Below, one piece after another: positions 10,501 through 63,315 of a stretch of DNA of 64,000 nt (the stretch's first letter is position 1; each line of letters opens with the position of its first letter). The translations under genes were made by a program, and so were the position numbers. Under the pieces are notes generated by a model that was not told the DNA's origin, searched no databases, and saw nothing but the letters and a program-made list of their open reading frames with translations. Source of the stretch: Undaria pinnatifida. Lineage: Eukaryota; Sar; Phaeophyceae; Laminariales; Alariaceae. Location: the NCBI GenBank assembly GCA_012845835.1, contig JABAKD010000028.1, positions 2,250,742 through 2,314,741 of the forward strand, written 5' to 3'.

Positions 10501-13380
10501 TGCCGGGTCTAACTCGATTTTCCGACGTAACTGATTGCATTCCCTATCCCCGGTATATTAGAAATAAGTGGAAACCCCTGAAACTGAACAGGACACTGCA
10601 TTCCGTTGTCCAACGGTCAATCACCATTGCCTTTATAGAAATTCGAAAGCAAAAACGTACGGGCATTTTGTGGTGTAGCCTTTCCGTGTAATACTGGGTA
10701 TACTGAAGAAGCAGTGGAATTCGGGGATCTTTTTGAATCATCCCCGTTATATGCCGTGACTTTCGTACGTAATTTCATGAGCTGATTTTACGTATTTACG
10801 CGTAATGGGGAACCCTGAATCGCCGTAACCGTCATTCCTGGTTTTATTGTACTTCGCGACAGAGCTAAGCTTGGAAGGCCTGCTAACCCCGGACGAACTG
10901 GCAGCAGAGGTGGGCCACGATTTCCACGAAATGAGCTCGAAAGTGGAGAAGTGCGATGGTGCTGAGGCGGTGACGGCGCGTCTCAAGAACATCGGCATCC
11001 CCCAGGTGAAAAACAGGCTGCAGCACACCAAGTTATGCAAGACCGAGATCCTCGAATTGTAGTGCATGCAGGTGTTACTAGAGACTCGAGCAGCAAGGGT
11101 GTTAAACTTTCATCAACACGACATTGTGTGCTATGGTGTTTGTTGCGTTACTTTTGTTTTTCGGTCCTGTGTTTCTGTTTTCGGATACTATACCGCAATC
11201 GCTCATAGGTTTTGGCTGATGCGATCTTCAATGTGGTCCCTGGTTTGTGGCGGGGTGTGAATTAGATACTCGCGTTCGCTCGGAATAAATGTCACTTCAA
11301 CTCGAACGGTCACAATCAGTTGCCGCGATTGATGTCAAACAAAACTTGAGCCTGGTCTGGTCACACGTCATCCGTTGAGAGTCGAGGCGCGAAGTGCCCA
11401 CCTCCTCCCCCAAGCCCCCTCCCCTGCTGAGGTTGGCGTTGGTTGGCAACGACGCTGTAAAACACGCCCCTCACTACGTGAGCTAGACCACCAGAGTACC
11501 TTTTTCTTTTCTCGTTTTTATGTTTTGACTGTAACCGAGATGGCGGTCGAGTGAAATCATATTGTGCGCACGGGGGGTTATATGACGTAGTGTAGATAGG
11601 GTAAGGCACCCACGAAGACATAGTATGCCCATTGCTGTCTTTAGAAGTGGCCACACCTGAAAATAAATATATTATTTCGAAGCCGCTATCTATATGCAAG
11701 AAAGTACGCACAACGTGTGGAAGTCCGCCTGGCAATGGTTTTGATTAGGATGCAGTTCACTCTTCATGAAAGACTGATTCTACGATAGCCCCCCCCCAAA
11801 CCAGCGTTTTTCTTTAACGAACGTTTAATGGCTGCTCGACACGAGGAAGGATGCTATGAAAAATACAATCTTCAAATATTTTCTTGCTTGCAAAGAACTG
11901 TCGAACTATCTATGATGTCGGGGGGGCAAGGGGCCCCGTATTTCAGGAGATACGGCCGGGATCTGTTTCCAAAACCGGCGAATTCGTTAAAGAAATGTTG
12001 GGGGGGCTACCGTAGACCGTCTCGAAACTTGCCGAGCACCTCATGCTGCTTCGCGCTTGGTGAACGCAATGCGTGCCTGATCGGTGACCACCCGACGTGC
12101 TTCGTTTTGGCATCGTAAGGATGCGAGGGTCAGTGGTGATATGACTTCGGCTTTTCATGAAATGAGCCCCCCCACCCCCCTCCCACCCACCGTGTGACCC
12201 GTCGAACATACCACAATACTTCGTGCTTGGTGCAAGCAATATCTGCCGGGTCGGAGAAACTCGACGTGCGCCGTCCCGACATTGTGTGGGGGTCTATGAT
12301 ATTAAAACTCTGGCCGTGCATGACCCCCGCACCCCCCCCCCATCTCCTGTCTGCTTTGGGCGCATGAAACGGTTTAGGGCATCGCAACCTCGAGCTCGTC
12401 AGCGGCGGTGAGCCTCAAGCGACTAAACCACGGGGGGCTGTTCGAACGCATGGAATGCATCGTCACTGGAGATGACCCGGAGGTAAATGTGTGTTTCTGA
12501 CTACAACAAATGGTGCACCGGTTTTTAGTCAAGTTTATATTTTCCATCGCTACTGCTGTTGCTTTTCAGATCTAGTAGGAGGTTGTACCCTTAGCGATCT
12601 TCTGGACAAGCCGTGGTCACCCAGGTCGTCCCTCCTCCCCGCTCGACAGGGGTAATTATTCTCATCGCGCATAGGGTTCGGCATTCATTCCCACTGCCCT
12701 TTGATATTGATCGAACGTGGCCAACTCTTGCTCTCACACTTTCGGCAACCTTGGAACAAACAACCACCGAGGTAGTCGCTGGCAAAGCCGCCCCCGGCAT
12801 CTACGTGGCTGCCATTTGGTCGCAAACGCTTCTGTGAAAGTATCCTTGCCGGCACGTATGCCCCACTTTCCTCTCTTTTGGAACCGTACGTACCTCATCA
12901 CAATTCCCTGGGCTTTTCACAGGTCATGACCCGACCGGCGGATCGGGCCAGAATATTTTCATAACCTCGAAGGTTGAACCCGATCGGGTCGGGCCGGGTC
13001 AAGAGGTCTCCTCCTTGTTAGAACCGTACGGGCCTCATCATAATTTTGAGTTTCCCCCGTTTGGAACATACCGCATCATAATGTTCTCCCTTTGGAACCC
13101 TTTCACCACCCAGGTAGTACAGGGCAAGCCGGCCCCAGATATCTACATCGCCGCCGCGAGGCGGTTGGGCCTTGACCCTCGAGAGTGTCTTGCCTTTGAA
13201 GATGCCTTGGCGGGAGTTCGATCGGCGAAGGCGGCCGGCATGTTCGTTGTTGCGGTTCCCGATAAACGTCTAGACAAGGGACCATTTGTGGAGGCTGGTG
13301 CTGACGTGGTACTTGAATCGTTGAGCAAGTGGGATCATTTAGAGTGGAGGTTAGAGCCAGACACGGCCGGCCGAAGTTGA
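7571..13380 (+). CDS. HAD-superfamily phosphatase, pseudouridine-5'-phosphatase (HDHD1)-like
   Basis: Complete five-exon gene: 7571-7622, 9888-10028, 10863-11005, 12378-12482, 13114-13380. The 708 nt encode 235 aa, close to the roughly 230 aa of HDHD1 proteins. The ATG at 7571 starts MPSFNDKPIRGIVFDLDGT. Nucleophile motif I DLDGT (residues 15-19) is split across intron 1. Exon 2 continues TLLDTEDL and exon 3 completes the helical cap. Exon 4 opens GIATSSS (motif II) and has GDDPE. Exon 5 gives VVQGKPAPDIY (Lys152, motif III) and CLAFEDALAG (Glu176-Asp177, motif IV). Such enzymes are Mg-dependent phosphoaspartate phosphatases on small phosphorylated metabolites; the substrate here is inferred from the family only. 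Junctions are clean GT-AG. Introns hold SINE fragments, GC-rich tandem repeats and a truncated copy of exon 5; further decayed copies follow the gene. Confidence 0.9.
8060..8122 (+). repeat. Dispersed repeat, family G copy 1
   Basis: The segment cctgcaaagggtggcccgtg followed by tctgtaaccgccccttaatc matches 32515-32575 almost exactly. It lies in intron 1 of the HAD gene. Confidence 0.6.
8690..9330. repeat. Degenerate internal repeats in HAD intron 1
   Basis: Many short variants of tggcaaa, tgtggca and ggggtggca recur here in both orientations, for example at 8742-8776, 8810-8822, 9020-9045 and 9085-9100. Open frames here share this composition and look non-coding. I see no defined element ends. 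Confidence 0.35.
10155..10215 (-). repeat. SINE S1 3'-part fragment, reverse
   Basis: The run ctggacaagccgtggtcaca is the reverse complement of the 3' part of SINE S1 (49609-49916 and 55850-56164). It is preceded by a matching cacttttactcgcc segment. It lies in HAD intron 2, 130 bp after exon 2. Confidence 0.6.
10440..10590 (+). repeat. Dispersed repeat, family C copy 3
   Basis: Shares gggcagacggttccggct-like sequence, tccctatccccggtat and agtggaaacccct with the copies at 2820 and 4430. It is more diverged and lies in HAD intron 2. Confidence 0.4.
11760..12355. repeat. GC-rich diverged tandem repeat in HAD intron 3, ~165-190 bp
   Basis: The unit at about 12040-12180 (cttcgcgcttggtgaacgcaa, later catgaaatgagcccccccac) is echoed at about 12205-12345 (cttcgtgcttggtgcaagcaa, later catgacccccgcacccccc). 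Each carries a C run. An earlier G/C-rich stretch at 11786-12005 may be a third, poorer unit. Frames here are open only because of composition. Confidence 0.5.
12595..12645 (-). repeat. SINE S1 3'-part fragment, reverse
   Basis: The run tctggacaagccgtggtcac matches the reverse complement of the S1 3' part, followed by a diverged cctcctccccgc segment. It lies in HAD intron 4, upstream of a truncated exon 5 copy. Confidence 0.55.
12765..12840 (+). pseudogene. Truncated copy of HAD exon 5 start
   Basis: After an accgag acceptor-like site, the frame reads VVAGKAAPGIYVAA, matching VVQGKPAPDIYIAA at the start of the real exon 5 (13114). It then diverges and stops by 12839. The catalytic ED motif is absent. 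It lies inside intron 4, 340 bp before the real exon, so it could act as a decoy acceptor. Confidence 0.7.
12918..13012. repeat. GGGTC-rich degenerate repeat (family E copy 1)
   Basis: Starts caggtcatgacccgacc and contains several gatcgggtc/cgggtcgggcc variants. It resembles 61746-61945, which starts gggtcatgaccc. It lies just before HAD exon 5. Confidence 0.55.
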
Positions 13381-13589: not shown

Positions 13590-13855
13590 CCGGGGGTACG
13601 TCGAATACCACACCCGCTACGAAGGTACGCTAGGCTCTCGAGATTGTTTTGCTTTCAAAGACGCCTTAGCGGGAGTTCGATCGGCGAACGCTGCCGACAC
13701 GTTTGTTGCTGCTTCGGTTCCTGATATGCGTCTAGACAAAACAGCTGTTTGTTGAGGCTGGTGCTGACGTCGTGCTGGCATCGTTAGGCAAGTGGGACCA
13801 TTCGGAATGGATTGGGCTAGGCACGGGCGATCGAAGTTGATTGGTCGGTAGAGTT
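13590..13855 (+). pseudogene. Decayed copy of HAD exon 5 (first downstream)
   Basis: The reading CFAFKDALAGVRSANAAD matches CLAFEDALAGVRSAKAAG of the functional exon, with Glu of the ED motif changed to Lys. Downstream it keeps PDMRLDK, then shifts frame and stops at 13755, while DNA similarity continues to the gatcgaagttgattgg end shared with the real 3' end. It cannot encode an active enzyme by itself. Confidence 0.8.
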
Positions 13856-14021: not shown

Positions 14022-14275
14022 TTATCACCGGGGGTACGTTGAATACCTCACGCCTGCTACGAAGGCACACTTGGCCCCCTGGAACGTCTTGCCTTCGAAG
14101 ACGCTTTGGCGGGGGTGCAATTGGCAAAAGCTGCCGGCATTTTGTTTGTTGCGGTTTCTGATAAACACCGAGGCCGTTCGTAGAGACTTGTGTTGACGTG
14201 CTAGAATCGTCAAAAATGGGATATTTTGAGAGTGGCTGGCTTGAGCAAGGCACGGCCGGCCGAAGTTGATTGGTC
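14022..14275 (+). pseudogene. Decayed copy of HAD exon 5 (second downstream)
   Basis: A second downstream copy opens gggggtacgttgaatacc like the previous one. It contains the LAFEDALAGV-type segment with frame changes and an ends-in-common ggccggccgaagttgattgg. Loss of frame at about 14080 and 14165 makes it a relic. Copies follow each other at roughly 430 bp. Confidence 0.75.
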
Positions 14276-34060: not shown

Positions 34061-35750
34061 ATGTCTGCACAGGAGAGAGACTCCTCGGATGAGATTCAGC
34101 AGCTGAGGAATGAGCTTGAGATGGTGATAGAGGAGAGACAAACATTGATAATGCGCGATATGAGGAAGGTGATGGCCGTCGGAGTCCAGCAGCGCGATAT
34201 GAGGGAGGTGATGCGCGATATGAGGAACAACGGCCCGTCGGAGTCCAACAGCGCTGCAGCGCTGTAAGGGCCAGCCCGCGAGGGGCTGAACCCACTGCTG
34301 TGAGGGGGAACGGCGCTGAGGACAGCGCTGCTGAAAGGGGTAGCCAACAAGGGGCTGAACCCACTGCTGCGGCACGATAAACTTCTGCTGCTGGTGCTGC
34401 TTCTGCTGGAGGCGGAGCGCGAGGATATACAACAGCAGCAAGAGAGACGATTCTTCGTGACGATGGCTCGCGTAGTTTTGGAGTGATGGGACGCAGGGGA
34501 GCCGCTGTTTCTGTCGAGGTTGGCCCAGCAAGGGGTCAGCCAGATCAGCCAAGGGGGACTGGAGAATGGGGGTCATACCCAGGCGGTGAGTTGGAAGTAG
34601 GATATGATATACCTTTGTCTAGACTACTAGCCCTCAAACATACCGCTGCCCCACAATTTAGTGGAAAAAGGCCCGAATTCGCTGCCTGGACCAGAAACGC
34701 CAGGTACTACGCGAAAAGAGTAGGTTTCCTGTCTGCTTGATGTGTCGGATCCACCCCAGTACGTTCCCGTAGGGGAATTGGATACCGAAAACTCGGTACT
34801 TGTCGGAAGGGGCGAACGTATACACATACATGCACTCGCGTGGAATTTCCTTTCGACGACCCTAAAGAGCAATAGCGACAAGAATACCTTGCACAGGTGC
34901 ACCTCGCCGAGAGAAGCGTGGGACGCGCTCCTCGCGTGGTACGGCTCTCAAACGACGGGGGCCAAATCCGACCTTTCTCGCCGCCTCAATAGTTTCAAGA
35001 TAGCACCAGGGAGTAACCCTCTAGAGGAGATGGGCAGGATCGAATATCCTGCCGCAGAAATGCGCACAGCAGGAATGACCCTCGATGACCACATGCTGTA
35101 CACAGTTTTTATTGACGCTCTGCCTGCCGAATAGGATGTGGAGGCAAGGAACTTTGCATCTCGTGACAGCATCGGTCGCGATGACATCATCAAGGCTGTA
35201 CGAGAACGGCGTCACCGACTTTTTGGAAGCAGGAAGAAGGGGTCCAATGCTGGCCATGCCGGCCATGCTATGTTCGCCGGCGGCGGCGAAGGTGGCCACA
35301 CAAAAGGGGCCGGCGGTGGTGCCCACGGGAAAGGTGGAGGCCGCGGAAAAAGAAAAGATGGACGTCGGGGACGGCAAGGACGCGGCGGTAAAAGCACCAA
35401 CGAGGACGGTGGTGACTCGGCCGCGGCTGCCGGCGGTGATGGCAGCAGCGCCAAAGCCGCCGATGGTGGTGCCTCCGAGGTGAGATGCCACAGGTGTGGC
35501 AAAAAGGGCCATTGGAGGATCGACTGCACGGAGGAGCTATGCAGCGGATGCCACGGACGGGGGCACGCTGCTGATGTCTGCCCCACTTCGAAAGGGGAAG
35601 CTGTGCTGGCGGTGTCGGACGACGATGATGATAGTGATACGGTCGAGGTTTCAGCTTTCAAGGCCAGAGAGACAGGCGAGTGCAGTAACGTTTCGGGCAG
35701 AAAGGGGGAAGGTGAGTCGCCTTGGCAAGTAGGGGATGAGGCCTGGCTTT
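34061..35750 (+). pseudogene. Copia gag (capsid and nucleocapsid), broken
   Basis: The frame from 34061 (MSAQERDSSDEIQQL) looks helical and contains a repeated MRDMR segment; it stops at 34265. A second frame (34483-34740) and a third (34742 on) carry the capsid-like domain: FAAWTRNARYYAKR, then SPREAWDALLAWYGSQ and SRRLNSFKIAPG. There is a frameshift near 34735 and an in-frame TAG at 35132. Two zinc knuckles of C-x2-C-x4-H-x4-C type follow: CHRCGKKGHWRIDC (about 35488) and CSGCHGRGHAADVC (about 35541). Gag would package element RNA in virus-like particles. Confidence 0.8.
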
Positions 35751-38107
35751 GCGATAGTGGAGCGTCTACTTACATGACGCCTTCCGCAGGTGGCATGATC
35801 AACTACAGAGAATGCAATTTGAAACTGCGCATTGCTGACGGCTCAACCCGCACGATCGAAGGATATGGCGATATTAACTTTGTCTTTCGATCCGGAAACG
35901 GTCTCGTACAAGTAACGCTGACGAATGTTACGCACGTGCCAGGCCTCCGATATATCTATTTTTCCTACCTAATCTCGTGAAGCACGGTCACAGTTTTGAA
36001 GGACGTCCCGCTGGGATTGTAGTCAAGCTCAAGTCTGAGCGTTCGATCGTGTTTCCGTTGACCGGGAACCTGTACAGCCTGTACGACTACCGGGTCGACT
36101 GCAGCACTAAGGGAGATGCCTGTGCAGTACTCGTTCCGGGAAAGCTGCCAAACAAGCCCGTTGTCAACATAGACGACTACCACTGCGCGGCCGGACACTC
36201 CCACGAGGCACTGCTCCGCAAGACCGCGGAGCAGCAAGAGGTCGTCCTCGAGGGAAAGCTGCTGGGGTGCAAAGGGTGTTCCATGGCGAAGGGTCTCCGT
36301 CGAGGTATCAAGCAGTCCACACACACGCGAGCAGAAAAGAAGCTCGGAAGGGTTTTTGTGGATTTGAGTGGGCCTAAGGTGGTAAAGTCTCACGGGGGAA
36401 AGCGTTATACTCTCATCGTGCGCGACGATTTTTCACGGTATACGTGGGTGTACTTTATGCGCCACAAATCGGACGCCGCGGAAACGTTCTAGCAGTTCCT
36501 CTCGGATACTCGTGCAGATGGTGTCCCGTCACAGGTGGTGACCGTCCGATCCGATGGGGGCGGTGAACTTTGCGGGGGGAAGTTTAGCGACCTATGTAGA
36601 TCGCGATGCATTAAGGAAGAATTCACCACGGCCGACAGTCCCCAATTTAATGGGGTAACCGAGCGCGCGCTAGGTTTGATTGAGACGGCCGCAATGGCGG
36701 GTCGAACCCAAGCTCGTGCGCTTTTTCCCGGAGCGCGATTGTCGGCAACTGAATCGTTGTGGGCTGAAGCGTCGCACTGGGCGTGTGATGCGTTGAACCG
36801 CACGGCAACGTCCGCTAACCCCGCAAACAAGTCGCCGTACGAGATGTGGTACGGTAAACACCCCCGGTAGTGCTTCTACCTTTCCTCAAGCCTGGCTACT
36901 GCAAGGTGAAGAGGGAAAACAAATCTCAGCCGAAAGCACAGGAGTGTTTTTACCTGGCCCCTGCGCCTAACCACTCCCGAGACGCCGTACGAGTACTGAC
37001 CAAACGCCGTACTCTGCTTATCACGCGCCATGTCACCTGGCAACGCGTTTCGTCTTCACCACCTGTACCTGCCCAGTTGCATGACTCCCTGTCCCAGGCG
37101 GAGGGGGGGTCCGAGGCCAACGACGAGACCACGTCAGATGGAGGTGGGGGGGGGGGTGATGGACGAGCAGGACGAAGGTCTGGCTCGCCTGACCGACCTC
37201 GACGTGACGTGGGGGTTTGATCTGCACGCGTTCTTGCGGGAGCGCTCACAGGAGACACCTGCTGCCGGCGATGCTGGCGATCTGCTCGCGTGCTTGCAGG
37301 AGCGCTCACAGGAAGCACCCGTCGCCGGCGATGCTGGCGACGCAACAGCCGAGACGATGGACTCGTCTCAAGGGGGCGCGGTAGACGCCTCCTCGGTCCC
37401 CGCAGGGAGGGCCGAAACAGTCGAGACGATGAATTCGTCTCGAGGGGGTGCGGTGGACTCGGTCCCGGCAGGGAGGGCCGAAAGCGGCTCAGACGCATCA
37501 GCAGCCTCCGGCACCGATCAAGGGAACGGCGAAGGTCCCCCCGCGGTCCTGTCGGGGAGGGCAGCTCACGAGCTCAGTAGCTGGGGACGGCCACCCCCGA
37601 CAGTAATGGGCGGGACCCGGGGTCAGAGCCAACGCCTGCAGGATGAATCTGTTCAACGTCAGCGTGTGATTGAGGATGCGATGTCTGCGGCAGTGCAAAA
37701 GTGGACGGAGTTTGAGAGTATACTGGCGAATACATCCTGGACGACGGAGGATGCAATGGCCATGATGGCCGGAGGACCTGCTGCGGAAGAAATTAAAGGG
37801 GAGTCAAACGTGTACATTCCGAGAGGTTTTCCAGAAGATGTAGAACCACCCCCGCAATCCGTAGCAGATGTAGAGCGTTCCCAATACAAGGCGGCCTGGC
37901 GTAAGGCCATGAAGACTGAGTTGGACGGTCACAAAACGACCGGTACATACGAAGCTGCGACCCCGCCGCGAGGGTGGAAACCTGTAGGTGCAAAATGGGT
38001 ATTCTCGTACAAGACTGACAAGGATGGTATCATAGCGAAGACGAAAGCAAGACTTGTGGCTAAGGGCTTTAGCCAGGTGCAAGACGTAGATTACTTTCAA
38101 ACGTTTG
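35735..38107 (+). pseudogene. Copia pol, first part: protease, integrase, start of RT
   Basis: Protease carries WLCDSGAST at about 35745 with the catalytic Asp. A frameshift near 35965 precedes the integrase. Its zinc-binding module has H-x5-H and C-x2-C (YHCAAGHSHE, CKGCSMAKG, about 36178-36294). The core shows VFVDLSGP, then VRSDGGGELCGG, then SPQFNGVTERALGLIE, giving the D, D and E residues. Stops or shifts occur at 36490 (TAG), about 36868, and at an 11-G run at about 37147. The linker at 37156-37500 contains two short tandem repeats (ERSQE.P-AGDAGD and SSRGGAVD types). RT begins with WRKAMKTELDGHKTTGTY and KWVFSYKTDKDG, and is cut at 38107 by the nested element. Confidence 0.85.
37195..37500 (+). 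repeat. Minisatellites within the Copia integrase-RT linker
   Basis: A 60-bp unit (ttgcgggagcgctcacaggag to gccggcgatgctggcgat) occurs twice at 37231-37340. A unit of about 72 bp (gagacgatggactcgtct to gcagggagggccgaa) occurs twice at about 37350-37480. Both keep the reading frame. Confidence 0.7.
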
Positions 38108-38554
38108 TGTCACGAATCGTGCCTTAGTGCAGTGAAGTCTAGAGTCAGGGTGAGACAGACGAGGATACCTATCAAGGCGAAGCAGACGAGGATATCTAGC
38201 CTACTAGCACCGCAGGATCCCCATGTTGGCTATGTCTGTAGCACGCCTCAGATATTCATAATGACTGACCTCCGAAGGACCGATACGACCGAGTTCAGAA
38301 GGCGCTTGCACGTTCCTCGGAGAAAGAGAGCAAGTCCCCTGTGCAGGTGCTCAAGATATGAAGCCTCCCAAGAAAGTAGTGTGTAAATGGTAACTTGATT
38401 GCTTATTCGAAGGGTTTATGAACGTGAACCGAAGGAATTGTGTCCGGGTGGGGCAGCCACACCCGACTTAGGGAGGGGACGTTAATAACGCGGCCCTTAC
38501 TATCACAAAAACGCCTGTCATAGTAACTCTAGAAATTGTCACGGAACCGTAACA
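38108..38554 (-). repeat. Gypsy 3' LTR (full)
   Basis: Reads TGTTACGG to TGACA on the minus strand, with inverted TGT...ACA ends. A purine tract (gctaggggga on the minus strand) lies just inside at 38555-38565. It matches 43552-43913 along all 362 shared bases. Confidence 0.85.
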
Positions 38555-38565
38555 TCCCCCTAGCA

Positions 38566-39460
38566 TAATGCGGTGACAAGAGCAGTAAGCTATAGCAATC
38601 CTGTGACTGTACAGCCAAGGGTGAAGAGCCGCAAAGATTTTTACGAAAATGATGACCTCGAGGATAGGCTAACAAACCGAAAACGCAGGGGCCATAAGAC
38701 GGAAATCCTCGATAAAAACCCTCCCCCCTGCCTTTTCACTGCGTATTGGATCGCCTGGCCACTATTCGATGGCTAAAAGTCCTATGTGAACGAAATTAGC
38801 GCGCATGGAAGCACCACATAACTCCACGGGTCTGACCCATCTACTTTTTTTTTAGTCCGCTCACATACCCTATAATCCACTACCAAGATGCCATTTTGGT
38901 AAAAATCAAATACTGCCAAAGCACTGATGGCTAAATAAATCCGAAACGTTTGGCATATGCAGGATGCTGATGCCAGATATCAATGAATGAGAAAACATTT
39001 GACAACAGAAATCCTTTAATAAATCAAGTGGCATGAAGTCGAGGGACTACCACGGCACGTAGTATGCAGCCCTCTGAACACAATCACCTGTTGGCTAGTT
39101 AAATTCAAGCCCCAACTAACCACTGAATACAACCTCGTTACTGTTCAAGAGGCTTTATACCAACAGTATCTCCAATCCTTCATGAAGCAGTGCCGAAAAT
39201 AAAAAAGGAATTCAACTTCAACACTCACACACAACCCAAGTACAACAACGTTCACGACGTTGTCGCATTATAGTAAAATAGCACACATCTTTGCTGTCCC
39301 CTACTGTTCCACACCCGACCGACTGGGGCACGGGTGATTCCGGTCTTAACCCACAGCAAAACGGTATTCCCCCCGACACTACTTCCCCCCCTTGTCAAGG
39401 TACAATTTAAAAACATTGGAGAATGCAGCTCTTCGTCTCGTCGAGTAGGTAATCGCGCTT
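38566..39460 (-). other. Gypsy 3' non-coding region
   Basis: Lies between the end of the pol remnants and the polypurine tract. It is AT-richer, and no domain was recognised on either strand. Confidence 0.4.
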
Positions 39461-39464
39461 CATC

Positions 39465-40229
39465 TCTGCAACTGCTCCAACTCGCGGCGGGTCAGTTCTT
39501 CTGGTCGCTGTATCGCACTCGCCAGTAGCGGCCTCTGTAGTCGTACACCTGGCCTTGCAGTCGGAGACCACCGCCAAAGTCTTTCCAGATGGTGAAACCT
39601 GTTGGGAACAGGGTCAAGGCTTGGCGGCGACAGAAAGGGGTACGAGGCTTGACTGAGACGGGGACTGGATCGCTCGCAGGTTGGGGGTTGTACAAATGCC
39701 AAAGTGCAATAAAGCCATCTAGCTGCAAGGGGGTGAAACTCTTTAGCATCTCATTCTCAGACGATCAGCCCGTCTCTACCCCATCATTCGACCTCCCCTT
39801 GTATTCTCGCCTAGCGGCACCGGATGGGGAGTTTGTTCAGCGACAACTAACAAGAGAGTCAAAATGCGAAGAGTTTACCACTTCCAACGCCCTTTTGAAA
39901 CTGGAACCCAAGCATACTGCGCGAATTCGTTAGCTAGTGAATGTATCAGAGAAAGGGGTCGGAGGTAGTATGGCTTTACGTCTGCTGTGGACACATTTCG
40001 GGTGCGTTGTTTTCTACCTCGCATCGTTACGTGCATGCTAAGGCCTGTCTGTAATATTTCCGTGACTCTCCAAGAGCCTGTGTAGTGGTCGTGTTGAAGT
40101 TTCCGCCCTCTGTTGTCGCGATGTCTGCTGCTCTCGGACTCGCGCACCAGCACAAGGCTTCCTTTCTCGAGAGCGACTCCGGCTGAGGGACTTGAAATGA
40201 AAGCGTTGGCGCGGGCTCTCGCGGTTACC
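39465..40229 (-). pseudogene. Gypsy integrase C-terminal region, frameshifted
   Basis: Two minus-strand pieces follow the main pol frame. 39920-40153 reads SSRHRDNRGRKLQHDHYTGS, then ADVKPYYLRP, like the SH3-like integrase C-terminal module. 39465-39749 contains FTIWKDFGG, VYDYRGRYWRVRYSD and LTRRELEQL, a small basic beta-type module of a kind found at Gypsy pol C termini. Frame changes separate them from each other and from the upstream frame. Confidence 0.6.
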
Positions 40230-43200
40230 CTAAAATTGTGCTGCTTCTCGAGCGCGAGACGGACTTCTCGGAGGTTCTGTTTTGCGTCGCTCCACGAAGT
40301 TGTCTAGGCCACCGCTCTGTTCTGCCTCCGCTGACAAGGGTACCAAGGAATCTAAAGAGGTGCGGGGTTGACGGCCAAACAGCAGCTCGAAAGGGGTCAT
40401 GTTCGAGGGGAGGGAGACGTCTGGCAAAGTGCGTTTGATCCAAATTGCTGGTGACACGTATTCGTCCCACTTCTCTGGCCACGAGCGACATAACTCTGCT
40501 AAAAGCTCTTGCAACCAATCCCCCAACCTTTCGACAGCTCCTTGACCACGTGGGTGATCTGCTGGGCCGAACACCATGTCTGCATGCAGCCAACAGCATA
40601 AGTGTGTCACTACTTCCGCTCCAAACTCTCTGCCACCATCACAACGGATCACGCGAGGTACCCCGAAAGTCAGACACAACTCGGTCAGGACCCGTGCCAC
40701 GCCTACTGCCTGCTTCGTTTCTAGAGGGAATCCGAATGGGAACTTGGAGGCTCGATCTACTACCAGTAGAACATACTTGTTGCCGGAAAGAGAAGGTGTG
40801 TCCATTTTTAAAATATCCATCTGCAGTTCATCCCACGGTTCTAGCGGGCGTCCGGGCAACAACGCGATACGTCTGCTGTTCGGTCTCTTGCGTCTCCGGC
40901 ACCTGCACGATAACACGTATTGTCGAGTGTCGCGAGTGACCGTAGGCGAGTGAAAGTGATCCCTCACCAAGGCCAAAGGGGCTCCTACTCCCGCATGCTC
41001 GTGTAGAGTATGCACTAAAGCGAGTACATCGGCTATCATGGATTCGGGTATGGCTGGCAGCTTTCTGCCTTGTTCGTCGGTATACCGGACTACCTCGTCA
41101 TCGTCTAAACCATAACTGGTCGTGTCAACTCCCCCTTCGCCTGTACCACTATCACACAAACTCTTGCGAACCTGACCCAAATGGGCGTCGTCCTGTTGTC
41201 GTCGCGCGAGGGCTGCGGGGTTGGTGAGAACTTGTACCGCCCGGTGGATGGCCGGTGTCTCCATGACTTGGTAAGCTTCCGACGAGCGAGGAACCTCCCC
41301 CTCTGCTGAAAGCACCTCCCCAAGATCGTCGCTGAGATCGCTACTGCTGGTGTGGAACGGAGGTGACAGGGTCTTCGAGGCCGATGGCGAAGGCGGGGGT
41401 GGCTCGACCGGCGTGAGTGTGCAGGGGGGGTTATTATCCGGGTTCCCCAATTGCCCCATGGGGGGCAGCTGGACGTCGCCGAGTGGACGTAGCCGTACCG
41501 AAGGGGTACGGGCTCGACTTCCTCGGCGCAGCGTAATAGAGTCTGCATCTAGCACGGCACACGTCGCAAAGGGTAGGGCTCGTAGAGCAAGGAGACACGC
41601 GTCGTTAGCATCATGGACCGGCGCTGTTGACGATAGCTCTGAAATAGGATCGCCGTTGTTAGTCCCCGCTCCACCTACCGCGTCGATCTTTGCTAACCAC
41701 ACCCCATCTAGACTCGGCCCACGAGGCCCTAGGAAATCGGATGGTGCTCCTGACGTAAAATCATCGAGGAAGGAGTCATCTACATCGGCTGAGGTGTCCT
41801 TAGCATGTGGCAGTCGTGACAGGGTATCTGGTACTGCGTGTTGCACGCCTGCTCGCCTTTCCAGCAACATGTCGTATTTCGCGAGCCTGAGTGCCCATTT
41901 ATGCACCTTAGGGCACAGCTCGCGACTTCGAAACAGCCAGGTTATCGCAGAGAAGTCGGTCACTACTTTGAACTGCCTACCAGATGAATAGGATCGAAAG
42001 TGATCTACTGCCCACAGCACTCCCATGCATTCCCGTTCTGTGGGTCCTCTGCGAGCATCCGTGCGAGAGAACCGGTGGCTAGCAAAATTAATCACACGAG
42101 ATACCCCGTCGATGATCTGCATGAGAACTGTCCCAGCACCTGCGGTGCTAGCATCGGTATGTAATTCAAAAATGTTGTCGAGATCCAGGAATGGTGAAGC
42201 TAGCGATGAACGCAACGGCTGAAACGCCTGCTCCTCCTCAACCCCCCCCCCGATACGGTTCTTGCGCGCGCATTTTGATGCGAAGTCCTTATTGCGGAGG
42301 ATGTCGGTGAGAGGGGCGGCAGTCAGACTATAGTTGGGCACAAACTGTCGCAAGTAGCACGTCAGACCTAGGAAAGTACGGAGTTCTTCGACTGTCTGGG
42401 GGCGAGTCATGCTTGCAATGGCTTCCAACTTGGTCGGAGCGGGGTGTAGGCCGGTGCTATCGATGATCATGCCAAGGAACTCTTGTGAGAAGGACCCAAA
42501 AATACACTTCGCGAAATTGACTGACAGTCCCGCTGCTAAAAGATGCGTCAGGACTAGCGTGAGTGTGGCCAAATGCTCCTCCCAGGTGGTACTCTCTATT
42601 AGAACGTCGTCGAGCCAACTGAACACTCCCTCAAGGTACCCCAACGCCGATTTAACTCTGCGCGTGAAAGCCGAAGGCAGTACTGTCAAGCCAAACCCTG
42701 CCCTGGTGAATTCGTAAAGCAACCCGTCTGTATCTCTGAAAGCGGTTTAGTACCGGTCTTTCTCTGCTATCTCGATTTGGTGAAATCCTGAAGCCAGGTC
42801 TAACGGGGTGAAATATCGTTTGCCTTTCAACCCATCGGAAATGGTCTGCATATCCCCAAGACCTACATTGTCGGACACTAATAGCTTATTCAGTACTCGC
42901 TAGTCAATGCAAAGCCTGAGAGTTCCGTCTTTCTTCTGCACACACAAGCACTGCGCTGCCCACGGGGATACTGAAGGACGAATCATTCTTCGGTCCAGCA
43001 ATTTCTGGATCTCTGCTCTAATCATACGCCTTTCTTCCTGGGAAAACCGCCGTTGTTTGGCTGCGAAGGGGGTGCAAGACTCGTTGATCAACGGAAGTTC
43101 AAGCTCACCATCTATGCAGGCCGGTACTCGCTTGGGGTCGATGGGGAATAGACCGTCCTCGATGAAGGTTTCGAGCAGGCGACTGAGCTTTTGCTTCTGT

Positions 43201-43541
43201 AGGGATCCTAGCGTCCCCAAGTTGGCGTCCGATCCCTGTACCTTGGTGACTGGTTCCGTCCTGCTTATATTCGAGGCACACGGCGTGTCGAGGGCTCGCA
43301 AGGGAAGCGATGGATCAACACTGACGGGCGAGTCATCGAATAAAGACTCGAACCTTGCGGGGTCGCGTACGTTTAGTGCAAGCATTCGAGCTATCACGCG
43401 GTTACCCTCTACTACAGTGGTCTCTTTAGTGCGGTTCACTACTTTGCAGTACACCGAAGACCCCGGCAACCACCACAACACTTCTCGAGCGACCCCTACT
43501 AGTGCTCCCTTCTCTAGATCGAACCGTTCTGTAGGTAGCAT
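40230..43541 (-). pseudogene. Gypsy pol: reverse transcriptase, RNase H, integrase
   Basis: One frame runs from 43541 down to 40230 with two nonsense codons, TAG at 42900-42902 (right after RLCID, where Tyr is usual) and TAA at 42747-42749 (after KDRY). RT shows RRMIRPSVSPWAAQ, LCID, and the catalytic WLDDVLIES at about 42594-42617, with Trp in place of the usual Tyr. RNase H has ELHTDASTAGAG. Integrase has ELQMDILKMD, IRCDGGREFG and HPRGQGAVERLGDW, giving D, D and E; the zinc module ends C-x-C (SCRCRRRK) rather than C-x2-C. A 400-codon RNase H-to-integrase spacer is rich in Pro and Ser. Confidence 0.85.
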
Positions 43542-43551
43542 TCGTACAAGG

Positions 43552-43913
43552 TATCTAGCCTTTTAGCATCGCAGGGTCCCCATGTGAGCTATGTCTGTAG
43601 CACGCCTCAGATATTCATAATGACTGACCTCCGAAGGATCGATACGACCGAGTTCAGAAGGCGCTTGCAAGTTCCTCGGAGAAAGAGAGCAAGTCCCCTG
43701 TGCAGGTGCTCAAGATATGAAGCCTCCCAAGAAAGTAGTGTGTAAGTGGTAACTTGATTGCTTATTCGAAGGGTTTATGAACGTGAACCGAAGGAATTGT
43801 GTCCGGGTGGGGCAGCCACACCCGACTTAGGGAGGGGACGTGAATAGCGCGGCTCCTACTATCACAAAAACGCCTGTCATAGTAACTCTAGAAATTGTCA
43901 CGGAACCGTAACA
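43552..43913 (-). repeat. Gypsy 5' LTR, 3'-truncated
   Basis: Matches 38193-38554 base for base except about 13 changes. The last 85 bp of the LTR are absent and the pol frame begins 11 bp away, which marks the deletion junction. Confidence 0.85.
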
Positions 43914-43917
43914 TTTG

Positions 43918-45202
43918 CACCAACCCCATTGTCAGCGTCAATCAAAATTCTGGCGGCCGTTGCAAATGAGCAAGGTCTAAAGATTTACCATTTAGACGTA
44001 GCACAAGCTTTTGTCCGCGCGAAACTCGACGCCGAGATATACATGAAACTACCCGATGGGTGTGGTGACGTGCCAGGAAAGATTGTTCGCCACAGCAGAT
44101 CACTGTATTGTCTAGAACAGAGTGGACGGCAGTGGGCCGGACTACTGGTAGAGACCGTGGTAGAATTCGGCATGGAGCAGAGTAGGATTGATCATTGTGT
44201 TTTTCGCATGGTTGCGGATGGCAAGGTAGAACTGATCATGGCCGTTCATGTAGATGACATTGTGATTGCAGGATCGGACGAGGCATGCAGAGACTTCCAT
44301 GCCGCATTAAATACTAAGTTTCCCACGAATAACCTAGGCGAGTTAACTTGGTATACTGGTTGTGCTTTCAAGCGTAACTGGGAATTGGGCACGTTGGAGA
44401 TCACGCAGAAGGCTTTCGTTGAAAGCATGCTGAATCGTTTTGGTTTAAACTCGTCCTCTGACATCACCGCGACCCCTGGCGTTGAACTAGATCCAAGAGA
44501 GGAGGGCGAACCAAAGGGAGACTGGCCGTATAGGGAGGCTGTGGGCAGTCTGATGTGGCTGTCGACCATGACGCGGCCAGACATCTCGAACGCGGTGCGT
44601 GCTGTGGCGCGCCATTCTCACAACCCCACCGACAGGCACTGGAAAGCAGTTCTGAAGATCATGGCATACCTCCACGGGACAAGGGGTATGGGTTTGACTT
44701 TTGTAAGGGGTTCGAGATTGGATCTGACTGCATATAGCGATGCTGCTTACGCTGATAAGTCGAATGACAGGCGCTCGGTGTCGGGGACGGTAATTACCTT
44801 GGGGGTGCTGCCGTCAGTTGGGCAAGTAGCACGCAGAGGTGCGTTACGTTGTCTACAGCAGAAGCAGAGTATGTAGCCCTGGGTGAAGGGGTGAAAGAGG
44901 CTCTGTTTACGGGGGCAGTATTATCTTTTATTTGTCCAGAGCTAACCGGATCATGTGTCCGAGTTTTTGAAGATAATCAGGGGGCCATAGCGCTGGCTGA
45001 GAACCCTCTTAGTTCTGCGCGGAGCGAGCACATAAATGTGCGGTTCCATTTCGTCCGAGAGCTACTTCGTGCAAAGAAAATTGGCATTCAATTCGTAGCT
45101 TCGGAAGAGCAGCACGCGGGTGTTTTGACGAAATCCCTTGCTGCGACCCCTTTTAAATCTCACCGTAAGTTTTTGTTGAACCTACCGTTGGGTGATGAGT
45201 AA
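43918..45202 (+). pseudogene. Copia pol, second part: RT catalytic region and RNase H
   Basis: The RT resumes after the nested element with KIYHLDVAQAFVRAKLDAEI. It then shows SLYCLEQSGRQW and the catalytic AVHVDDIVIAG at about 44240-44270. RNase H follows with LTAYSDAAYADKSNDRRSVSG, a frameshift near 44810, then TAEAEYVAL, VFEDNQGAIALAENP and SSARSEHINVRFHFVRE. It stops at 45202 after LPLGDE. Except for the shift and the insertion this half is well preserved. Confidence 0.88.
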
Positions 45203-60300: not shown

Positions 60301-63015
60301 CGCTATGGACTGTTTGGGTTAGGGTTAAAGTTCGGGGTATCAATATGACATCCAAACGACCCTTGAACTTCCATCCAGAAATGGTATATGCCTAAGCGAC
60401 ACAGGGCGGAGCTACCGAGGCCACGGCTGGAACACGAAGCGCGTCCGTTGGGTGGGGTTGTCGCGTTCTGTTCCGCTGGATGCGGTTGCCTCGCCGTGGG
60501 TGCATCTCCTGGTTGATTGTATGGCAGCTAACGCTGTGTTGTGAATGCAACCGAATTAAATTGACATATCACATCCATGAAAGCAGGCTTCATTAAGCTT
60601 CTTTTTTACCCATCCGCAGGAAGATAAAAACATAAACGAACCAAAAATCCAGCTGACGGCGCTTGCCTCGTCGTCGGTACGTATTTTCGTCTCTAATGCG
60701 TGCCGTCTCATGCCCTCTGAAGCTCTCAACACTGTTAATACCCATCTATGACATACGCAGGAGAAATTTGAGCAGCTTACGAAAGAGCTGCCTCAGCTGA
60801 ACGGGGTTGGCTGCGAGATTCGTGTCAACGGCCTCGGCTTCAGCGTACAGCGGGCCAAGGGAAGCGCCGACGAGCCGACTGTTGGCGACAGTATGTTGTC
60901 GTTCGGAAAGTGTCTGGTGTGCCTTCCTCTCATCAACCGGCTCACCAAGGGGAAGGTATGTTTTTCTCTTTTTTTCTGTCTCCTTTTTTCCCCCCCAACC
61001 CCCCCTCAACCTTGATCGTGCCGCGGGCCAAGGGTTTTACCGACGAGCCGACTGTTGGCGACAGTCTCCTGTCGGTCGGCAAGTGCGTGGCGTGTCTTCC
61101 TCTCATTAACTACCGTTCCAAGAGGGGTACGTCTTTTTTGTTTTTGTCCGTCGCATCTGTTATCTTCCCGCTTGTGTCCATTCCCATCTGTTTTATTTGC
61201 GCCGTTGTACATCCCATCTAGTAACATTGCATTTTTTTCTCCAGCTCCTCCCTTTTTGTTTTCTGTTCCGGGATCACATGTGCTTACTGAAGATATATTG
61301 CCGACTTTTGTCTCCGCAAAAAAAGAAGAAAAAATTCGCGTAAAATGTTCTGCCAACTTAGAAGCGAGGGGAAGGGGGGTGTAGTCATTGTCATGCCTGA
61401 ATGTAGTCTTTAAGGCCGTAAACCCTCGCATCCCTACGGTGCCGGGACGGAGCATGTCGGGTTTTCACTGGACCAGGCTGACATTGCTTGTGAGATATAC
61501 CCGTCGATTAACGGTTAGTAACTCCTATGTTTCGTGGCACTGTTGCTGTTCCCAACTTTTTTTTCGCTGGTTCTACCCGACTACCCCAGGAAATGGAAGG
61601 CAAGACAATCCTCCACGACGTGAGCGCCGTGTTCAAACCTGGGACAACCACGCTTGTCCTCGGCCCTCCGGGGTGCGGCAAGGTGCGAATCAATATATAA
61701 GCATGCAGCTTTGCTGCACGCGGCGGCTGCACATATTATTCGCAGGGCTTTTCACGGGTCATGACCCCACCTGCGGGTCGGATCACGAGCTTTCTAGAAA
61801 GTCGCGGGTGGAATCGGGTCGGTTCAGGAGTTCGTAATGTTGCAGGTCGGACCGGGTTGGGGCAGGAGGTTTCCAAGTCTCATGGGTCGGATCGGGTCAG
61901 GGTCACCTGACCCGATCCGACCCGCGAGATATGTGGCCCAACTGAGTTGTTACGCTGGACGCACATTTAACCGTATCAACAGTCGACCCTGCTCAAGTCG
62001 ATAGCAGGGCTGCTGAAGCACGACTTGTGCCGCAGCGGCTGCCCTATCAGTTTTATAAACCACCTGTCGCACGAGACCAATTGACTTGTTGCGCTTAACG
62101 CGCCACCACATAGCCGTGTCAACAACATACCGCGATGGTGCCTTTGGGAGTTTTTTTTATAACCTCCCGACGCGTGGCACAACAGGGGTAGCACCGTTAC
62201 GGCGATTGTTTCCGAGCAACAGGGCTCGTCGACTAAGGGACTGCCCAATAGCGTTGGAACCCCGAGTTCGTTTTGAATTTTAGTCGATACATACCCAGGC
62301 CATGGCATTTTTCATCGGGTTGCACTTTTATGAGAGCGAGCGTTTTGGTGAGGTATGGACGTCCTCTGGTGAGGACCCTAAACATCCTCGGGTGCACTCT
62401 TGTCGTACCACGCGTCGGCTAATTTGTTGCGATGGACGCACATTTGACCGTATCAACAGTCGACGCTGCTCAAGCCGGTGGCGGGGCTGCTGAAGCACGA
62501 CTTTTGCCGTACCGGCTGCCCGATGAGTTTTGTAAACCATCTGTCGCATGAAACCAACTGACTTGTGCTGGCCGCTCACAAAACCGTATTATCAATGTAC
62601 TGAGACGGTTGCCCGATCAGTTTTATAGGTAATCTCTTGCATGAAACGAAAAAAATTAGAAAAAAATTCTGTTGCGCTGAACGCGTACATAATTGTATCG
62701 ACGGTCGACGCTGCTCAAGTCGTAATTCTTCACGCGTTGGTAGTGGTGATTGAAAGGTGCTGCCCACTCGCCTACTTGGTCAAGTCAACGGGTGCCAGAA
62801 TCGTTTTGCTCATCACATGTCGCGTAAAACCAACTGACTAGTTGCGCTGAACGCCCCACATAATAACCGTATAACAGTCGACGCTGCTCAAGTCGATGGC
62901 GGGGCTACTGAAGCACGATGCAGGACACGTCAACACGGGCAGCATCACGTACAACGGTTGCACCAAGGATTCCAAGGAATTTTCGCTGCCCAAGCTGGTG
63001 CATTTTGTGGAGCAG
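48343..63015 (+). CDS. PDR/ABCG-family ABC transporter, N-terminal part
   Basis: Seven exons, all starting and ending in phase 0: 48343-48399, 55102-55218, 59651-59833, 60620-60676, 60761-60955, 61590-61682, 62878-63015; 280 aa, continuing past the right edge. The two 5' exons (MDDPEPAGPDDHDHTP and DWNYYKRQAHVQKDV...YGYHLPA) are assigned by phase and by the natural joint to DPESLKAALSEHLAG; they are less certain. Exon 5 has ELPQLNGVGCEIRVNGLGF, the strand leading into the nucleotide-binding domain. Exon 6 has EGKTILHDVSAVFKPG and Walker A GPPGCGK, interrupted by the intron; exon 7 continues STLLKSMAGLLKHD, GSITYNG and SKEFSLPKLVHFVEQ. PDR transporters use ATP to export lipids, drugs or metabolites across the plasma membrane; the cargo cannot be told. 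Introns reach 6.7 and 4.4 kb and are full of SINE, MITE and J copies. Confidence 0.8.
49609..49916 (+). mobile_element. tRNA-derived SINE S1, copy 1
   Basis: The head reads ggtcgccccggtggcgtatc with an A-box-like element, and agttcgagccccgcc as B box at about 49665. A tRNA-unrelated body follows (ttcgttgggactttttcttg, gctgaaccctatgcgcgat). It ends in about 18 A. The flank agaccc at the left recurs after the tail (agacccg), a likely short target duplication. It lies in transporter intron 1. The second copy is at 55850. Confidence 0.85.
50054..50404 (+). other. Hydrophobic open frame in transporter intron 1
   Basis: A 116-codon frame contains GGLVFCLLSLSCGLACG and later hydrophobic segments, enough for two membrane spans. 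It has no recognised family, lies in a 6.7-kb intron between repeats, and shows no splice or codon support. It may be chance. Confidence 0.15.
50570..50750 (+). other. Conserved ATG-led peptide segment, second stand-alone copy
   Basis: An ATG at 50687 reads MSIDPKFVELTADVLKIFLF, matching the segment at 5276 (MSIDSKFIELTVDVLRRF). A reverse-oriented fragment (aatttcgtcgaaactca, about 50597) lies 80 bp upstream, giving a small inverted arrangement like the ends of element J. Beyond codon 21 the open frame loses similarity. Confidence 0.4.
51326..51796 (-). other. Unidentified minus-strand open frame with GGAGCCCTCC minisatellite
   Basis: The frame stays open for 156 codons. Its C-terminal third is a minisatellite of about 11-12 bp at 51357-51425 (ctccgggagccctccgggag), giving Pro/Gly/Ser/Arg/Glu-rich sequence. 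The upstream part (PTALDPAINTLARLYMISNE) shows no family I know. Two related cttcggggt... segments at about 51750 and 51930 suggest a repeat. It is inside transporter intron 1. Confidence 0.25.
52975..53128 (+). repeat. Dispersed repeat, family B copy 2
   Basis: Matches 6240-6410 through cggcggatggggg, agctcaccacacttcc, gcgtattttcacgc/catacgc and caatttaactcaattgc, ending cgctagctg. It abuts element J copy 4. Confidence 0.7.
53130..54112 (+). mobile_element. G-rich dispersed element J, copy 4
   Basis: The terminal segment (cagctgtaagatcgaagat, cttcatctttg-like, gatcgcgcgtattactggg) is followed by cagtctgtgcgcggaaac and a gcggaaggaaatgcatcag stretch, seen twice (53290 and 53490). G runs and a 20-bp unit (aacagctttaggtcgcatat) repeated three times at 53637-53698 follow. 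Two G-rich units with ggagctacggca(t/c)gg close it at about 54060-54110. No coding potential. Confidence 0.7.
55850..56164 (+). mobile_element. tRNA-derived SINE S1, copy 2
   Basis: Nearly identical to copy 1 from ggtcgccccggtggcgtatc to tgtccagaagctggaaagtg. The tail is an (AT)n tract (56143-56164) instead of poly-A. It lies in transporter intron 2, in the same orientation as the gene. Confidence 0.85.
56460..56545 (+). repeat. GTGG-rich low-complexity tract
   Basis: Imperfect gggtgggtg/gtgggtggac repeats. The frames through it are compositional. Confidence 0.6.
57640..57732 (+). repeat. tRNA-like SINE head (family S2)
   Basis: cacgtgactaagtgatttag and gtggatagcgc form an A-box-like start; gggttcgttgcatccc is the B box. 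Anticodon-arm pairing is poor. It shares cacgtg(a/g)cta with 311-325 and gttcgttg with 4140. Confidence 0.45.
57850..57962 (-). repeat. tRNA-like sequence, minus strand
   Basis: On the minus strand, gtgggttcggatcccac gives a perfect 5-bp T stem and 7-nt loop. About 65 nt upstream, agctctagcggcgcc resembles an A box. The intervening part is too long for a simple tRNA; an aacagctct/agagctgtt hairpin lies there. An intron-containing tRNA or a tRNA-derived SINE are both possible; I favour the SINE. Confidence 0.35.
59030..59152 (-). mobile_element. MITE family H, partial, reverse
   Basis: Ends tatcgtagcacggcgt and, read in reverse, gives the terminal repeat, then cacttttcgg and a cataacccaaaatcgtc segment as in the full copy at 25575. 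Confidence 0.6.
59395..59577 (-). mobile_element. MITE family H, partial, reverse
   Basis: Ends ctatcgtagcacgcgtcg, the inverse of the family terminal repeat. The body shares tattccaacgat and gagccccgtta segments with the copy at 59030. Confidence 0.6.
59845..60000. repeat. Tandem repeat, ~40-45-bp unit
   Basis: Variants of cgcaacatgcttgctgccacc and atggttacttttg recur three to four times directly after transporter exon 3. Confidence 0.65.
60118..60215 (+). repeat. Short dispersed repeat, family D
   Basis: ttttcaagtaggtttgttccc, then cacaacatgggtgtggttct, matches other family D copies, followed by a C run and a second gtgcggttctaaagg. Confidence 0.5.
60515..60650 (-). repeat. Dispersed repeat, family B copy 3 (reverse), spanning an exon acceptor
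   Basis: The reverse complement has tttatgtttttatcttcc, gcggatgggtaaaaaa, gaagcttaatg and gtcaatttaattcggttgc, in the order of copies 1 and 2. The acceptor catccgcag|gaa of transporter exon 4 (60620) lies inside it. Confidence 0.65.
61022..61126 (+). pseudogene. Partial copy of transporter exon 5
   Basis: Repeats the 3' two thirds of exon 5 (60850-60955): gccgactgttggcgacagt and tgtcttcctctcattaac. The homologous frame stays open (AKGFTDEPTVGDSLLSVGKC) and a GTACGT donor is kept at 61127. No acceptor AG lies in the expected place, so it is probably not spliced in. Confidence 0.8.
61746..61945. repeat. GGGTC-rich repeat with perfect hairpin (family E copy 2)
   Basis: Begins cgggtcatgacccc like 12920-13012, with many gggtcgg/atcgggtc variants. 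It ends in an inverted repeat with 18-bp perfect arms (61884-61901 and 61906-61923) and a 4-nt loop. It is in the intron that splits Walker A. Confidence 0.75.
61947..62877 (+). repeat. Array of decayed copies of transporter exon 7 start
   Basis: Units begin at 61947, 62086, 62424, 62563, 62668 and 62840, each with a ttgttgcgctgaacgc-type start. Units at 61947, 62424 and 62668, like the functional one at 62840, carry acag|tcgac-type sequence with ctgctcaag(t/c)c. Two encode STLLK...GLLKHD and then diverge into stops. The unit at 62086 is interrupted by a MITE. The last unit contains the real exon. Confidence 0.85.
62167..62420. mobile_element. MITE family H, second full copy
   Basis: The left end cgacgcgtggcacaac...ggggtagcac and the right end gggtgcactcttgtcgtacc + acgcgtcgg are inverse of each other and match the ends of the copy at 25575-25832, including the ggtagcac/ggtgcacc difference. 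About 254 bp; target duplication not clear. Confidence 0.7.
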
Positions 63016-63052
63016 GTGGGCGAAGCAAGTTCATAACATGCGTGACACAGGC

Positions 63053-63315
63053 GCGAGGATGATAAAAGTATGCACACGTCGGATAGCTCGTCGTAGCTCG
63101 AGCTCGAGCTATAACTTATTTGTGGATATAGGTAACTCGATCGCGAGGATGATAAAAGTATGCACACGGATAGCTCGTCGTAGCTCGAGCTCGAGCTATA
63201 ACTCATTTGTGGATATAGGTAAATCGATCGCGAGGATGATAAAAGTATGCATACGTCGGATAGCTCGTCGTAGCTCGAGCTCGAGCTATAACTCATTTGT
63301 GGATATAGGTAAATC
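63053..63315. repeat. Three tandem 87-90-bp units with self-complementary core
   Basis: Units start at 63053, 63143 and 63230 with gcgaggatgataaaagtatg. Each contains the palindrome tagctcgagctcgagcta, then ttgtggatataggtaa. It lies in the transporter intron after exon 7. Confidence 0.85.

Follow-up and report, generated by a model that had tools for sequence, protein, structure and literature searches.

Repeated copies of an intron end and exon start in a predicted ABC transporter intron: a probable case of tandem duplication and decay

Introduction

In a 64,000-nucleotide stretch of Undaria pinnatifida DNA (the window), an exon ending with the first half of a Walker A motif is followed by an array in which an intron end and the start of the next exon are present several times. 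A sequence-only reading of the locus had proposed six such units in a gene for an ABC transporter, and had offered two explanations, harmless decay of the early copies or decoy splicing that controls the output of the transporter. Here we ask how many units the array contains, which of them can still complete the Walker A motif and how the array is most likely to have arisen.

Results and Discussion

Organisation of the transporter gene

The window (GC 0.503) appears to be nuclear eukaryotic in character, judging by its introns and its copia-type and gypsy-type reverse transcriptases, and an Rfam search of the window gave 0 matches. Coordinates of the exons, the intron and the repeat units are presented in Table 1. 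By themselves, exons 2 and 3 match the Pfam ABC_tran profile with E values of 0.021 and 0.19, respectively; joined, they cover positions 1-55 of the 137-position profile with an E value of 7.8e-11. The Walker A motif and this profile match together mark the two exons as part of an ABC transporter ATP-binding domain, in agreement with the identity proposed earlier. Exon 3 opens at 62878 with STLLKSMAGLLKHDAGHVNTGSITYNG, encoding STLLK. The upstream exon at 60761-60955 matches no Pfam family and its membership in the gene is therefore only probable.

Among solved structures, the joined exons, a query of just 77 residues, match EttA best (8.4e-12) and CDR1 next (9e-10). A query of this length is too short for a firm assignment to the ABCG/PDR subfamily. 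Exon 2 alone matches 63 PDB sequences up to an E value of 1, with the bile salt export pump as the best match, and exon 3 alone gives 0 matches in the PDB. Inspection of the window by eye found none of the ABC motifs that lie downstream of Walker A, and contig searches for relatives returned distant ABC proteins only (25 viral loci; the best 80 of 103 genome matches).

Table 1. Features of the transporter locus and its intron array
Feature	Positions	Strand	Description
Exon 1 (probable)	60761-60955	+	65 codons, phase 0; acceptor CAG, donor AAG/GTATGT read directly
Copy of exon 1 end, donor and intron start	61011-61152	+	Decayed; source 60838-60980
Exon 2	61590-61682	+	Closes with GPPGCGK (Walker A, first half) in phase 0
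Intron harbouring the array (predicted)	61683-62877	+	Donor AAG/GTGCGA, acceptor AACAG/TCG; predicted spliced product matches ABC_tran
Palindrome	61868-61935	.	Strong; directly before U1; folds at -51.2 kcal/mol
U1	61942-62089	+	Intron end, AG 61981-61982, STLLK..., TGA at 62082
U2	62087-62190	+	Weak unit; no exon piece, no AG at matching place
U3	62419-62566	+	Intron end, AG 62458-62459, STLLK..., TGA at 62559; CTAAT 38 nt before AG
U4	62567-62660	+	Weak unit; no exon piece, no AG at matching place
U5	62670-62722	+	Truncated; acceptor reads GG instead of AG
U6, intronic part	62789-62877	+	Tail-like stretch; acceptor, with CTGAC 41 nt ahead of its AG
Exon 3	62878-63015	+	46 codons, phase 0 start, donor GTGGGC; sole copy running on as ABC domain

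Units of the array

The core formed by the acceptor and the STLLK codons, AACAGTCGACNCTGCTCAAG, is present at 61978, 62455, 62700 and 62873 when up to 3 mismatches are allowed; the mean number of copies expected by chance is 0.03, and four copies were reached in 0 of 100 shuffles. The first exon-type bases lie at 61983 (U1), 62460 (U3), 62705 (U5) and 62878 (U6), all of them 3' of the exon ending GPPGCGK, as had been noted. U1 and U3 are 87% identical over 143 nt (BLAST E 4e-46). When U2, U4 and the head of U5 were aligned to the clear units, none of the 2000 base shuffles of each scored as high, and only 1 of 2000 did so for the sequence preceding U6 (62789-62842). As all four pieces outscore their own shuffles, six units is a fair count and the earlier figure is borne out. 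U2 and U4 share the flanks of the repeat unit, and their direct alignment to each other is weak (153 of 2000 shuffles equal or better). Resemblance to the unit was found neither in the rest of U5 (62723-62788) nor in the stretch 62191-62410, for which 922 and 988 of 2000 shuffles, respectively, do as well.

U5 reads GACGG before TCG and has no AG. Because of this loss, three AG acceptors precede STLLK, ending at 61982, 62459 and 62877; the description of four near-identical acceptors followed by STLLK is thus correct for the core and needs amending for the acceptors. Direct copies that hold the intron end, the acceptor and the exon start are nevertheless present, in keeping with a tandem duplication across an intron-exon boundary.

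Early copies as would-be exons

The translations of U1 and U3 read STLLK(S/P)(I/V)AGLLKHD followed by a tail of 19 codons, both staying open for 33 codons up to a TGA at the corresponding place, while U5 meets a TAA directly after STLLKS. Joined to exon 2, U1 and U3 match ABC_tran with E values of 1.3e-8 and 2.5e-7 over profile positions 1-37 only, the match ending at LLKH in each case. A transcript taking the U1 or the U3 acceptor would therefore terminate early, as foreseen from the stops in the early copies, and the last unit, running on through 62878-63015, is the only one to give the full joined match.

The 41 exon-derived bases differ from U6 at 4 sites in U1 and at 3 in U3. Beyond them, a gapped SITYNG match seen by eye had suggested that the tail might correspond to the remainder of exon 3, and was rejected because it is no better than shuffles. 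Shuffles were as good as the U1 and U3 tails in proportions of 0.53 and 0.70 in protein alignment, 0.79 and 0.82 in soft-gap protein alignment and 0.52 for both in DNA alignment. A tail unlike the exon continuation is expected if the duplication carried in intron sequence. A search for whole-exon copies (acceptor, homologous body and donor) found none, and no donor scoring at least 7/9 is present at the end of any copy.

Tandem duplication followed by decay

The sequence itself displays the copies in their order, the decay they have undergone and the position of the best ABC match from 62878. In all likelihood, the array is a tandem duplication over the intron-exon boundary that has since decayed and lengthened the intron, with no role in control. 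A segment running from the intron end through the acceptor into about the first 41 exon bases would have been duplicated in tandem repeatedly, with the original continuation retained by the last copy. As the last copy keeps this continuation, splicing from 61682 to 62878 would still yield the normal protein, and 62878 is predicted to be the acceptor in use. The earlier copies would have become intron filler without any role, decaying through base changes, insertions and the disappearance of the AG or of the exon piece. The course of these duplication events is our reconstruction from the units as they now stand.

Decay fits best because the AG is lost in U5, the exon piece is gone from U2 and U4, the branch-like motif is changed in U1 and decayed copies of exon edges occur at two other sites of the window. 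Differences between U1 and U3 number 4 over the 38 sites of the intron tail, 5 over the 41 exon-derived sites and 10 over the 58 of the tail beyond, so that no part has clearly been kept. Counting against decay, U1 and U3 each retain 33 open codons plus the AG, and the same piece is missing from U2 and U4, for which we have no detailed explanation.

A comparable case is the potato RdRp gene, where, according to the report (PMC4974935), the 3' side of an intron and the 5' side of the next exon are duplicated in tandem and a new, detected intron has resulted. The present array would be a tandem duplication of the same shape, an intron end together with an exon start. In contrast to the potato gene, the array described here, known from DNA sequence, has a larger number of copies, which have decayed and have apparently been absorbed into a single lengthened intron. 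Tandem exon duplication (PMC9013439) likewise leaves exon-homologous sequence in a neighbouring intron; however, only about the first 41 of 138 exon bases are copied here, and duplication of a whole exon is a misfit since no copy spans it. Under the decay reading, the locus offers a clear small case of intron growth by duplication of its 3' end together with the exon start, in which the protein is unaltered if the last acceptor is used.

Splice signals and the case for decoy splicing

The CTRAY branch consensus, which comes from other organisms, was looked for 15-60 nt upstream of YAG. Among the 26 YAG sites of the intron, U3 and U6 are the only two with such a motif, and the corresponding place in U1 reads CTGAG. 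Between 61683 and 62877, one donor-like site scores at least 7/9, CTG/GTGAGG at 62368 between U2 and U3, with a score of 7/9; exons 2 and 3 have donors of equal score. A cassette from U1 to 62368 with an in-frame stop is therefore possible on paper.

These features, namely the AGs retained in U1 and U3, the branch-like motif of U3 and the donor-like site at 62368, which could close the U1 cassette, are what speaks for the regulatory half of the earlier proposal. U1 or U3 would compete with 62878, the transcripts with an early TGA would be destroyed or give a truncated protein, and the output of the transporter would be lowered. Decoy exons are known to bring about intron retention (PMC8706089), and the predicted non-productive splice sites inside the present intron resemble those. 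In comparison with what is described there, however, no donor of at least 7/9 lies within the repeat unit here, 62368 falling outside it. The signals are decayed in U5 and U1, and there is no indication that the array has been retained for splicing. We therefore regard decoy splicing as unlikely. If an early acceptor were used under control, the locus would represent a simple path from duplication to gene regulation. The decay half of the proposal fits better, and the array is best read as real but as an ordinary local duplication, nothing seen in it indicating gene control.

Third-position differences between U1 and U3

Over 33 codons in the ABC frame, 11 of the 15 differences between U1 (61983-62081) and U3 (62460-62558) fall at codon position 3 (binomial 0.0018, hypergeometric 7e-4; the test was picked post hoc). 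Differences are synonymous at 8.5 of 23.8 sites and non-synonymous at 6.5 of 75.2. With the other units as outgroup, 7 changes are assigned to U1, every one at position 3, and 3 to U3, with 1 at position 3; 5 are assignable to neither. This excess is an oddity that plain decay does not predict. Worked out by hand, the third positions of the ABC frame coincide with those of a minus-strand frame, so that the pattern could stem from either strand. Owing to this coincidence, to the post hoc test and to third positions that differ more than the neighbouring intron, the excess is kept as unexplained. As a general pattern it was rejected, being absent in the exon 1 copy, where the differences by codon position are 10/5/10 in an ungapped comparison (the alignment has small gaps near its end).

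Such an excess could be the trace of copies that were formerly translated exons, on either strand, and lost their function recently; the low share of non-synonymous differences and the consistent placing of the U1 changes would suit this. That history is nonetheless improbable. The tail is unlike the ABC exon, the copies have no donor at the matching end, and the minus-strand open reading frames through U1 and U3 (61979-62311 and 62328-62585) match no Pfam family. Moreover, third positions differ at 11 of 33 sites, more than the 4 of 38 in the neighbouring intron, so the neutral sites disagree.

The excess was given weight only for one further possibility, that U1 is a working alternative transcript end whose 33-codon stretch and stop are under selection at the amino-acid level. 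This seems very unlikely; if true, a duplicated exon start would have given rise to a truncated short product or to a decoy transcript that limits itself. An assembly artefact is the least credible of all, since the copies diverge by substitutions and indels. In BLAST, segments shared between units show 71-87% identity and contain indels, which makes a collapsed or artificial repeat unlikely.

Duplicated exon edges elsewhere in the window

The exon 1 end copy is 76% identical to its source over 144 nt. A HAD-hydrolase exon ending its gene (about 13115-13379; Pfam) has decayed copies with indels at 13605-13853 and 14043-14272. The next ABC intron opens with three tandem units of 87/90 nt (63052-63315). 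A dispersed repeat has one copy at 61730-61833 and another at 12899-13008 (score 85 against a maximum of 47 in 200 base shuffles), the latter copy lying upstream of the HAD exon, so that both copies adjoin loci with duplicated exons. It is conceivable, as a thought rather than a result, that the dispersed repeat or the palindrome initiated the duplications.

Apart from these loci, a copia-type reverse transcriptase is split in the window, with profile positions 3-56 at 37000-38124 and 52-237 at 43848-44873. Its halves are separated by gypsy-type minus-strand open reading frames in the region 34724-45199, which looks like a nested insertion, and 363-nt direct repeats, 96% alike, are present at 38193-38555 and 43552-43914.
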